Below are positions 57,673 through 61,852 of a stretch of DNA of 64,000 nucleotides, one piece after another (within the stretch, counting starts at the first letter, position 1; each line of letters starts with the position of its first letter). The position numbers were made by a program, and so were the translations under genes. The stretch spans positions 1 through 64,000 of the forward strand of contig WLPT01000006.1 in the NCBI GenBank assembly GCA_009698675.1, in the 5' to 3' direction. Source of the DNA: Actinomycetota bacterium (GTDB lineage: Bacteria; Actinomycetota; Actinomycetes; Nanopelagicales; Nanopelagicaceae). Below the pieces are notes generated by a model, which ran no database searches, had not been told where the DNA came from, and was given only the letters and a program-made list of their open reading frames with translations.

Positions 57673-58173
57673 TTACTCACTCTGACGTTCGAGGGAGGAC
57701 CAAATATGTGACTGCAACTCTTGCGTTGGCGTCTCCATGTCATATGCAAAGAAAAGTTCGCCGGCAACAAGACCATATAGACGAACTCCACCAGTTACAA
57801 TTTTTGCCGTTGGTGTGGAGTATGGCTGATCAAGAACTAGCTGGATCTTTGGCCCGTCGAAGTGCCCCACCCAACCCTCAGTGATTCCAGTGTTATGTGC
57901 AAGAACCACCTCTAAAATATTATTAGGTTTCGGGCGCCAGAAACCAGTTTCAGAACCACCGGGGCGCAGAATTTCGCCCTCTTTATCCAAGATCCATGAA
58001 CGCGAGTAGTAGTTTAAAAAAGGACGTCCATCGTGATTAAAGACAACTTCTTGCGCAAACTCAAAGGGTTCGACATTGGGATACTCACCACGGCCTTTGC
58101 CACGCCAGGTTCCAACCATCCAAGCAAGTGGATTGAGATCTGCATGTAAACCTTCTGGAATTGTAAAAACCAT
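57673..58173 (-). CDS. Nitrobindin-like heme/fatty-acid-binding-fold protein
   Basis: 166 residues. LAWMVGTWRGKGRGEYP carries the GxWxGxG heme-pocket motif of bacterial nitrobindins, and a C-terminal His (LQSHIWSSLER) could be the proximal ligand. It is a ten-stranded barrel family binding ferric heme and nitrogen oxides. Its ATG follows the stop of the upstream 42-aa gene directly. Confidence 0.83.
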   Translation of the reverse strand: MVFTIPEGLHADLNPLAWMVGTWRGKGRGEYPNVEPFEFAQEVVFNHDGRPFLNYYSRSWILDKEGEILRPGGSETGFWRPKPNNILEVVLAHNTGITEGWVGHFDGPKIQLVLDQPYSTPTAKIVTGGVRLYGLVAGELFFAYDMETPTQELQSHIWSSLERQSE

Positions 58174-58320: not shown

Positions 58321-59220
58321 TTAAACTATTGCTTGTTGCGAAGCTGGAACTCCATCGACAGTTAGTGTGGCATCCATCGGTGTATTTCGCTTTATTACCG
58401 CGAGTGCAATGGTGCCGAGTTCATGATGGCGGGCCACGGTTCCAAGAAATCCAACAACAACCCCATCGTTTTCAACCTTAACTCCTTTGGCGGGGAAGGC
58501 GACATCGCTACCATCTAAATGCAACATCACTAAGCGCCTCGGTGGGTTACCTAAATTAAAAATCTTGGCAACGGTCTCTTGACCTCTATAACAACCTTTG
58601 TTCATATGGACTGCGCTATTTAAGACGCCAATCTCATTAGGAATCGATTTGTGATCGGTTTCAAAACCGATTCGTGGCCGCCCAGCTGCGACGCGTTCGG
58701 CATCTAAAGCCCACATACCAACTTGTGCTGCAACGGAGTTAAAAGTTGCACTCATCTGCACTAACTCGCTGCGAGGCAGTAATGCATATGGGCCCCCGAT
58801 ATCGGTGGTTATTCCTGGAGCGCGCAGTACTGCGAACTCAGCTGTCGCATCCCGTACATCTACTCGGAGCATGAACTTCATCTTGTTTAAATATGTAAGT
58901 AGGGTTTGGCTATAACCGGGATCGATGACAATCCAAGTCGTCGCACCGTCATCAACCAAATTAAATTGATACTCAATATGGCCTTGCGGGTCCAAAATCA
59001 TCGCCGACTTCCATAGGCCAACGGCTAAATCACTTAAGAACTGCGTGGTTAAATCATGTAACCATTTCAAACGATCCTCTCCGCTCACCGCGACAACGCT
59101 TAAATGTGAGAGGTCGGCCCACGCAGTGCCTGCCTCTAAGGCGCGCTGCTCTTTGACAGGCTCACCAAAATGCCAGATCGCCCCTTTATCTACACCCTCT
59201 TCAACAACTACTGCGCTCAT
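58321..59220 (-). CDS. ygfZ: Folate-binding YgfZ/GcvT-like protein
   Basis: 299 residues. The diagnostic motif KGCYRGQETVAKI, with its conserved Cys, lies at about 200-212. The GcvT-like fold binds tetrahydrofolate and helps maintain iron-sulfur enzymes. It overlaps the Fur-family gene by 4 bp. Confidence 0.9.
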   Translation of the reverse strand: MSAVVVEEGVDKGAIWHFGEPVKEQRALEAGTAWADLSHLSVVAVSGEDRLKWLHDLTTQFLSDLAVGLWKSAMILDPQGHIEYQFNLVDDGATTWIVIDPGYSQTLLTYLNKMKFMLRVDVRDATAEFAVLRAPGITTDIGGPYALLPRSELVQMSATFNSVAAQVGMWALDAERVAAGRPRIGFETDHKSIPNEIGVLNSAVHMNKGCYRGQETVAKIFNLGNPPRRLVMLHLDGSDVAFPAKGVKVENDGVVVGFLGTVARHHELGTIALAVIKRNTPMDATLTVDGVPASQQAIV

Positions 59221-59621
59221 TGGCAGGCGGTACAGGTTCCGTAGACAGCAAAGTGGGTTACATCTGTCTTGAATCCATAATCATCGGCAAGGGAGTTTAC
59301 GAAGTTAGCTGCAACTTCAATCGAGGCATCTCCAATGGATCCACACTTTCCGCAGACTAGATGTAAATGCGTTAACTCTTCAGCTGCATGATATGTCGCA
59401 CCACCATGGCCTAGATGCGTGTGAACAACAAGGCCCACATTTTCTAATGTCTCAAGGTTTCGGTAGACAGTGGAGAGATTAATTCCTGGATGTGCCAGAC
59501 GAACTTTCTCTGCAATCTCTTCAGGGGTTGAATGCCCCAGTTCACGGACGGCCGATAAAACAAGCTCACGTTGAGGGGTAAGGCGTAGCCCCTTTTCGTG
59601 CAGTTCGTGCTTATTAGCCAT
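59217..59621 (-). CDS. Fur family metalloregulator
   Basis: 134 residues. A winged helix (LTPQRELVLSAV ... INLSTVYRNLETLENVGLV) precedes a dimerisation domain with CGKC and CTAC pairs for structural zinc and the HLHLVC sensory region. Fur, Zur and PerR cannot be separated by eye. Overlaps DUF4395 by 8 bp. Its place in the operon with YgfZ suggests metal or redox control. Confidence 0.88.
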   Translation of the reverse strand: MANKHELHEKGLRLTPQRELVLSAVRELGHSTPEEIAEKVRLAHPGINLSTVYRNLETLENVGLVVHTHLGHGGATYHAAEELTHLHLVCGKCGSIGDASIEVAANFVNSLADDYGFKTDVTHFAVYGTCTACQ

Positions 59622-60063
59622 GTGAGAATCTTACGCGAAGAAGTAGCAAATAGAGTTCACAGCCTAAGCAGAAGTTAAAAGCTGCATTTAAAAACGCTGC
59701 CGCTAGGGCAAAACTCACTGCAATAGTGAAAATTGGTGCGATACCAGTGAGCGCACCCGCAACCCCAGTAATAGCAAAGAGTAGTCCAACGCTTTGGGCA
59801 AACTGTGGTGGGCGAATATCTTCAACAATCGCCTTGCCTTTGAGTCGAGGTTTAATAATCTTTCGAAAAATAAAGGCGTACGGAGTGAACTGTGGGCCTT
59901 TAGTAGAACCAATTAGAAAGACAACTGCTTGTGCACCTAAAATCCAAATATTTGAAGTAACGAGAGTAACTGCTAACACAATCGTAGTGAGAGCCGCCGA
60001 AAAACGTGGACCTCTTGCATCAATTGAAACTGCGGCTATTTTTTCTGCTAGAACTTGAGTCAT
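59614..60063 (-). CDS. DUF4395 membrane protein
   Basis: 149 residues with about four hydrophobic helices. RGPRFSAALTTIVLAVTL and FNFCLGCELYLLLLR (two cysteines) match DUF4395, an actinobacterial family often beside thioredoxin or sulfurtransferase genes. It starts after AAAGGA and a leader hairpin. Probably linked to sulfur or redox metabolism, from context only. Confidence 0.83.
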   Translation of the reverse strand: MTQVLAEKIAAVSIDARGPRFSAALTTIVLAVTLVTSNIWILGAQAVVFLIGSTKGPQFTPYAFIFRKIIKPRLKGKAIVEDIRPPQFAQSVGLLFAITGVAGALTGIAPIFTIAVSFALAAAFLNAAFNFCLGCELYLLLLRVRFSHG

Positions 60064-60089
60064 TAGATATTCCTTTGGTCGTTGAGTGG

Positions 60090-60116
60090 GTAATTGTTTT
60101 TAACTACAACAATTAC
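60090..60116 (-). promoter_or_regulatory. Leader-mRNA hairpin between leader peptide and DUF4395
   Basis: GTAATTGTT and AACAATTAC are perfect inverted repeats (9-bp stem, 9-nt loop). On the minus-strand mRNA the hairpin begins within the leader-peptide stop region and ends about 26 nt before the DUF4395 start. Ribosome stalling on the leader would alter this structure, as in translational attenuators. Confidence 0.65.
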
Positions 60117-60190
60117 ATTCGACACAAAGAGCCAGCAAGGCGACCGAAATCAATTACTCGGCGCTTGGTGAAATTACTGGCTAAAGACAT
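60113..60190 (-). CDS. 25-aa putative cysteine-type leader peptide
   Basis: Not in the ORF track. It encodes MSLASNFTKRRVIDFGRLAGSLCRM. The pattern of RR, xID, R, Ser and a near-terminal Cys-Arg resembles the actinobacterial leader peptides found before sulfur-metabolism genes (form like RRHIDLLRVSSALC). It stops just before a perfect hairpin and the DUF4395 gene. The start is about 7 nt past a TAAGAT sequence, so the mRNA may be leaderless. A cysteine-sensing attenuator is inferred. Confidence 0.6.
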   Translation of the reverse strand: MSLASNFTKRRVIDFGRLAGSLCRM

Positions 60191-60234
60191 AGTAGGAATC
60201 TTAAACAGGGATAGTTTTTAAAGCCAGTTGCAAA

Positions 60235-60645
60235 CTATTGGCGAATAGCCGCCAGCGCGGTCATAACTTGTTCTCGCTTTGGTGCGCCAACGGCGCGGCC
60301 CACTTCACGTCCACTGGGGTCGAGAATTAGCGTCGTTGGCGTACTCAAGATATTTAATTTCCGGACTAGATCCAACTGCGCTTCGGCATCGACTTCAACA
60401 TGGGTAACATCGTGCATATCTGTGACGATATTTTCAAGCAGAGCTCGCGTAGCCCGACATGGGGTACAAAATGCCGATGAGAACTGCACCAGCGTTGCGC
60501 GTGATCCCAGCGCGCCGCCAATCATTGATTGGCTTATAAGAGATGGCCCGTATTTAGCTTTCACTGTGCCGCGCGAGCGCCGATACCAAAGGCCATATCC
60601 GCTGGCTAGGCCCAGGACAATGGCGAGTGGAAGCAATGTTTTCAC
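60235..60645 (-). CDS. Membrane-anchored thioredoxin-like protein
   Basis: About 136 residues. I prefer the GTG at 60645 (MKTLLPLAIVLGLASGYGLWYRRSRG); the track start at 60663 is a TTG sharing its first base with the divergent regulator. One N-terminal helix anchors a thioredoxin domain with redox motif FCTPCRA and cis-Pro in STPTTLI. It lies upstream of DUF4395, matching the thiX-Rv0817c-glnR-mshD neighbourhood of mycobacteria. Confidence 0.83.
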   Translation of the reverse strand: MKTLLPLAIVLGLASGYGLWYRRSRGTVKAKYGPSLISQSMIGGALGSRATLVQFSSAFCTPCRATRALLENIVTDMHDVTHVEVDAEAQLDLVRKLNILSTPTTLILDPSGREVGRAVGAPKREQVMTALAAIRQ

Positions 60646-61378: not shown

Positions 61379-61852
61379 ATGCGCCATATTTTAAAAATAC
61401 ATCGCGCGCTTCAAGGTCGCATTCCAGATACTGATCACGGTTTCACAATTGAAAGCTTTGATCCGCTAATTCATAAGCAGGTATGGCTAGATCTCAACAA
61501 TAAGATCTTTATCAACCACCCAGATCAAGGTAACTGGGTGATGCAAGATTTAGAGAATCGCATGGCTGAACCCTGGTTTGATGCCGCTGGATTTTTTCTA
61601 GCGATTGAGAGCGGTTCATTGGTCGGAATGTGTTGGACCAAGATTCATCACGATCTAGTCAACCAAGCCCCTGTTGGTGAGTTATATGTCGTTGGTGTCG
61701 ATCCCGAATTTATGGGCCATGGCATTGGTCGCGCCGTATCTATCGCCGCGATGAACTACTTGTTTGCCCAAGGCATTAGAGATGCGATGTTGTATGTCGA
61801 TGCCGATAATGAAAAGGGCCTAAAACTCTACGAGAGCTTAGGGTTTAATTAA
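61379..61852 (+). CDS. mshD: Mycothiol synthase-like single GNAT domain (half-size MshD)
   Basis: 157 residues. INHPDQGNWVMQDLENRMAEPWFD, FLAIESGSLVGMCWTKIH, ELYVVGVDPEFMGHGIGRA (acetyl-CoA loop) and LYVDADNEKGLKLYESLGF match the C-terminal acetyltransferase of MshD. Full-length MshD is about 300 residues with two GNAT domains; the N-terminal domain and the last dozen residues are missing here. It would acetylate cysteinyl-GlcN-inositol. Its 3' end overlaps the convergent aminotransferase gene. Confidence 0.78.
   Translation: MRHILKIHRALQGRIPDTDHGFTIESFDPLIHKQVWLDLNNKIFINHPDQGNWVMQDLENRMAEPWFDAAGFFLAIESGSLVGMCWTKIHHDLVNQAPVGELYVVGVDPEFMGHGIGRAVSIAAMNYLFAQGIRDAMLYVDADNEKGLKLYESLGFN

Follow-up and report, generated by a model that had tools for sequence, protein, structure and literature searches.

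How can a single cysteine codon suffice in a regulatory leader where relatives use several, and does an invariant leader peptide itself do the sensing? Both questions are raised by a short open reading frame (ORF) in a stretch of 64,000 nucleotides from a member of the Nanopelagicaceae (contig WLPT01000006.1; here called the window), for which the original prediction proposed a cysteine-responsive attenuator: a cysteine-type leader peptide, a hairpin at its stop codon, and a good ribosome site before an operon with Fur and YgfZ. Coordinates are window positions, and all leader and operon features lie on the minus strand. A need for reduced sulfur has been reported for Nanopelagicales (PMC7527133). 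A conserved switch built on a cysteine codon and placed ahead of DUF4395-Nur-YgfZ, thiosulfate-uptake-like, and cysK-cysE-like operons would offer a testable sulfur circuit in these hard-to-culture bacteria.

The leader ORF (60113..60190) lies before the DUF4395 operon and encodes MSLASNFTKRRVIDFGRLAGSLCRM, 25 codons followed by a stop. Using a search seeded from DUF4395 matches in relatives, we found an ORF of the same type upstream of DUF4395 in most loci of the same, Planktophila-like genus and of the class, and a peptide profile matched 45 of 81 genus genomes and 99 of 118 class genomes, with one match in the window's own genome. In an alignment of 29 leaders, R10, R11, D14, R17, and C23 are invariant (motif RR..D..R.....C), an invariance that is not fully unbiased because these leaders were chosen by motif pattern. 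At V12 and G16, the residue stays unchanged across 23 genus leaders that use all four codons. The 25-residue leader gene is real and conserved at the amino-acid level with varying synonymous codons, a check on which the original prediction had staked itself beforehand. The Cys codon expected near the end of the ORF is UGU (60122..60124), which encodes C23 of the 25 codons and is found in 23/23 genus leaders. It is the only one in the window leader; genus leaders have one or two, and most Cys codons of the class form of the peptide, DLCRV..CLC, are lost in the genus. The cysteine-type pattern thus stands as a conserved ORF type of sulfur genes, but the peptide holds one Cys codon rather than a run.

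Downstream lie genes for a DUF4395 protein (59614..60063; PF14340, E 5.9e-41), a Fur-family regulator (59217..59621; PF01475), a YgfZ/CAF17-like Fe-S protein (58321..59220; TIGR03317, above cut-off), a 42-aa ORF, a nitrobindin-like protein (THAP4_heme-bd; 57673..58173; PF08768, E 1.9e-45), and asparaginase II. Their tight packing in this order on one strand suggests a single operon of six genes, with DUF4395 as the first regulated gene. The regulator announced as Fur does belong to that family and is more precisely a Nur ortholog, its best solved relative being 3EYY (E 4.9e-43). Among named organisms, Candidatus Planktophila and other Nanopelagicales have the DUF4395 proteins closest to that of the window (74% identity to L195), which most likely belongs to this group. 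Some records titled Bifidobacterium breve or Streptomyces griseus (L181, L183, L189, L200, L205, L220, L239) have DUF4395 loci that look Nanopelagicales-like, and these titles seem to be misassigned MAG names. Elsewhere in the window (61379-61852), a 157-aa MshD-like acetyltransferase covers the mycothiol synthase model (294 positions) only in its C-terminal half.

The link to sulfur is borne out by relatives, in which conserved short ORFs of the same leader type, with Cys codon(s) near their end, precede sulfur-related operons. In L112 and L114, the order is leader, DUF4395, rhodanese, DUF1416, and a Nur-length gene; in the window, rhodanese and DUF1416 are absent between DUF4395 and Nur. By sequence reading rather than by profile, a second leader, MFxTKRRVIDYCRxxSTSC, stands before a rhodanese that appears to be exported, together with a YeeE/YedE-like transporter (L090-L103, L108, L116), and leaders also occur before cysK-cysE-like genes in L110 and L165. 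In some copies of the second family, a 5' UTR that includes a ribosome site replaces the leaderless start, and the leader before the cysK-cysE-like genes at L165:1729-1806 carries the altered motif MKSIINWLFTRNRVVDFCLSTSCSC.

Transcription is predicted to begin at the leader itself. The window has the -10 element TAAGAT (60198..60203) 7 nt ahead of the leader start codon. Among genus leaders, 31/31 have a TANNNT hexamer whose end falls 6-7 nt upstream of the start codon, compared with 18% in shuffles (here and below, relatives share descent, so that counts of leaders are not independent events). This spacing predicts leaderless leader transcripts in the genus. A transcription start downstream of the leader had been named as a refutation; the conserved -10 element sits before the leader, not after it.

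The hairpin that first drew attention, P3 (60090..60116), is an exact 9-9-9 inverted repeat, GTAATTGTT-N9-AACAATTAC at 60116..60090 (stem GUAAUUGUU-N9-AACAAUUAC), and this motif occurs at a single place in the whole genome assembly (1.31 Mb, 78% complete). Its perfect pairing and its position are as described, but its 5' arm starts one base before the stop TAA (60115-60113), so that the stop codon lies inside the arm and not before it. Folded alone, P3 reaches -6.7 kcal/mol (z -3.7, 0/200 shuffles), and a stem of at least 9 bp at the stop codon appeared in 0/3000 shuffles of the window spacer. Its conservation holds among near relatives, where 24/31 same-genus leaders have a stem of at least 7 bp at the stop codon (1.1% of shuffles), but not further out, with P3 in only 8/32 held-out leaders. 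The arms differ between clades while pairing is kept (GTAATTGTT, TTAATTGTT, TTAGTTT, ACTAAAACT). P3 is the apical, clade-limited tip of a larger fold, confined to near relatives. A masking of the ribosome site by P3 itself was considered and dropped, since the hairpin stops 13 nt upstream of that site and many relatives lack it.

The larger fold (z -4.44, 0/200 shuffles for the window leader RNA) places P1 and P1a inside the ORF, P2 between the Ser-Leu-Cys-Arg codons and the Shine-Dalgarno region, and P3 within P2. P1 pairs AGCCAGUAA (60174..60182) with UUGCUGGCU (60130..60138), P1a (60140..60164) is a hairpin made by the codons for RRVIDFGR, and 80.6% of the cells of P1 and P1a are paired across 31 leaders, compared with 27-41% for slid controls. 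P2 joins CUUUG-U-GUCG (60120..60129), which contains the Cys codon, to CGACCAAAG (60073..60081), which overlaps the DUF4395 Shine-Dalgarno sequence. The native P2 duplex has -9.4 kcal/mol, compared with -7.6 +/- 0.43 after swapping between clades and -6.5 +/- 0.43 after shuffling (0/300 in each case). Synonymous recoding, which used window codon usage for all leaders, weakens P2 (mean rank 0.09 in 31 leaders and 0.11 in 32 held-out ones, 0.5 expected), and recoding of the full leader gives mean z values of -2.8 and -2.1 in the same two sets. P2 is therefore the general element, covarying between clades and with codons selected for its pairing. The attenuator layout of the original prediction is supported with this exchange, P2 taking the general role that the noticed hairpin does not have, and the P2 fold, covariation, and recoding together point in our models to a structure that would couple ribosome position to downstream expression.

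Several results bound this fold. RNAalifold on the whole-genus alignment recovered P1a alone because spacer lengths vary, which is why we tested P2 and P3 one sequence at a time. P2 does not reach the Shine-Dalgarno sequence in some clades, where it pairs with the bases immediately upstream. The same fold was not found in the rhodanese/transporter leaders (recoding z +0.2), and class-level leaders have weak ORF structure (z -0.9); in several of the latter, it is the bases CCTGA at the stop codon that match the Shine-Dalgarno TCAGG, as seen by eye and in some folds. Rfam, searched at gathering and permissive thresholds, gave nothing at the leader, with no covariance-model match at E<=1 in 59900-60300.

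What, then, would the fold do? No U-tract follows P3 on either strand, as the intrinsic terminator of a trp-type attenuator would have, and this absence and the position of P2 lead us to favor control of translation initiation over termination; control is more likely translational than transcriptional. We consider it likely that the leader acts as a translational attenuator: a ribosome delayed at the Cys codon would free the start of the next gene. Transcription would start at the leader ATG, giving a leaderless 5' end from which the 25-codon ORF would be translated. As long as no ribosome is slow, the RNA would fold into P1/P1a, P2, and P3, and P2, probably aided by P3 bringing its strands together, would pair the Ser-Leu-Cys-Arg codons with the DUF4395 Shine-Dalgarno sequence and keep the gene off. 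When charged Cys-tRNA is scarce, the ribosome would wait with the Cys codon in its A site and cover the P2 5' strand, the Shine-Dalgarno sequence would be exposed, and DUF4395 would be translated, followed through coupling by nur, ygfZ, and the genes behind, so that control may reach all six genes. Cysteine is the probable signal, given the Cys codon, the gene neighborhood, and the mycobacterial precedent. The ribosome site is as good as first described, AAAGGAA (60070..60076) standing 6 nt before the DUF4395 ATG (60063). Its modelled openness in the window is 0.28 in free RNA, 0.51 with a ribosome at Cys23, and 0.58 with one at the stop codon; the stop-codon and Cys23 positions open the site to a similar degree, so that regulation would depend on dwell time. 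Lower Shine-Dalgarno openness than in recoded leaders was not found genus-wide (mean rank 0.44). Two further points count against a translational attenuator: the leader is absent in several relatives, and one Cys codon makes a weak hungry-codon sensor.

That weakness speaks for nascent-chain arrest, in which the peptide RR..D..R.....C would stall its own ribosome at or near Cys23, perhaps with cysteine or another sulfur metabolite sensed in the exit tunnel, and act on the same downstream RNA switch. Five residues are invariant in genus and class even as most class-form Cys codons were lost in the genus; however, the RR and GR codons also form P1a, making their conservation partly a matter of RNA, and extra Cys codons recur in many leaders. 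We regard this reading as rather unlikely. Transcriptional attenuation, whether through a Rho site laid bare in an untranslated leader or through RNA polymerase pausing at P3, appears distinctly improbable, as no U-tract is present and the covariation of P2 and its codon selection point to the ribosome site. A C-rich, G-poor stretch after P3 would suit Rho but is short; Rho has been proposed for terminator-less cys leaders (Seliverstov 2005, PMC1262725), and Rho-linked upstream ORFs have been reported in M. tuberculosis. Finally, a perfect 9-bp dyad near a regulator gene could be a DNA operator with the ORF incidental, a reading to which we give hardly any credence and which we rejected for the hairpin: from clade to clade the arms vary freely in sequence yet stay paired, and the ORF is conserved at the amino-acid level.

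The translational attenuator that we prefer has precedents. In mycobacterial cysteine leaders, a structure at the downstream ribosome site is reportedly opened by a stalled ribosome, and the present leader would share such a structure. Leaderless cysteine short ORFs exert cysteine-responsive translational control in M. smegmatis (Canestrari et al. 2020, PMID 32181921, as cited in PMC13236596, PMC9031893, and PMC9094748). As far as these accounts go, in both systems a leaderless short ORF containing cysteine codons stands ahead of genes related to sulfur, the leaderless start being predicted here from the -10 spacing; unlike that type, the present leader has one Cys codon and no contiguous run, keeps a full, strong peptide motif, encodes P1/P1a in the same ORF, carries a stop-codon hairpin, and has DUF4395 as first gene ahead of Nur-YgfZ. 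The candidate cys leader peptides of Mycobacterium, Propionibacterium, and Bifidobacterium (Seliverstov et al. 2005, PMC1262725) are likewise short ORFs that carry Cys codons close to the stop and lack an obvious terminator, but they have Cys runs where this leader has a single Cys, and no conserved hairpin was found there, whereas paired elements are conserved here. By analogy, the leader may work like the mycobacterial cysteine attenuators and belong to the broad actinobacterial cysteine leader peptides; because the polycysteine run is absent, we set it apart from the Canestrari type as a streamlined variant.

Upstream of the leader, a Nur-type box at fixed promoter spacing suggests a second regulatory layer. 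The window copy, TCGCCA-ATAGT-TTGCAA (60228..60244), was placed by hand and has two mismatches to TTGCRA-N5-TYGCAA. Its 3' end lies 37 nt upstream of the leader ATG; this spacing is 36-37 nt in nearly all genus leaders, and the box is exact in the relative L024. In 13 leader-less relatives, the box and -10 element directly precede the DUF4395 ATG, and DUF4395 is the predicted leaderless first gene (L009, L016, L019-L021, L023, L024, L026, L027, L029, L031, L032, L034). On the DUF4395 tree, presence of the leader changes 9 times, 7 of these forced by well-supported branches, a count that is approximate because 2 of the 18 leader-less rows are cut or divergent contigs; this distribution fits repeated loss.

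Further candidate boxes precede CbiM-like and NixA/HoxN-like transporters as well as metY- and cysK-like genes (names by reading). The box stands just upstream of the -35 region at sulfur leaders, a typical activator position, and close to the ATG at metal transporters. The Nur box of Streptomyces coelicolor is TTGCAA-N5-TTGCAA (PMC3919588), and that system shares with ours the Fur-family protein closest to 3EYY, the box sequence (predicted here as tTGCaa-N5-ttGCAA, with two mismatches in the window copy), the occurrence of boxes upstream of nickel/cobalt transporter-like genes, and Ni-SOD, found in 9/9 genomes tested; here, in contrast, predicted boxes also precede sulfur genes, just upstream of the -35 position. 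A tentative reading, unlikely as a whole, is that in streamlined freshwater actinobacteria a polycysteine sensor became a single-codon, peptide-assisted arrest sensor whose ORF would encode both an arrest peptide and an RNA switch and which, under the Nur-type box, would bring nickel and sulfur signals together on a single leaderless mRNA. Few regulators are expected to remain in streamlined genomes. Boxes before nickel/cobalt transporter-like and sulfur genes were seen in L160-L172 and in G040, G168, G014, G052, G103, and G015, and in L162 and L170 a long, structured-looking 5' region, possibly a SAM-type riboswitch, precedes metY.
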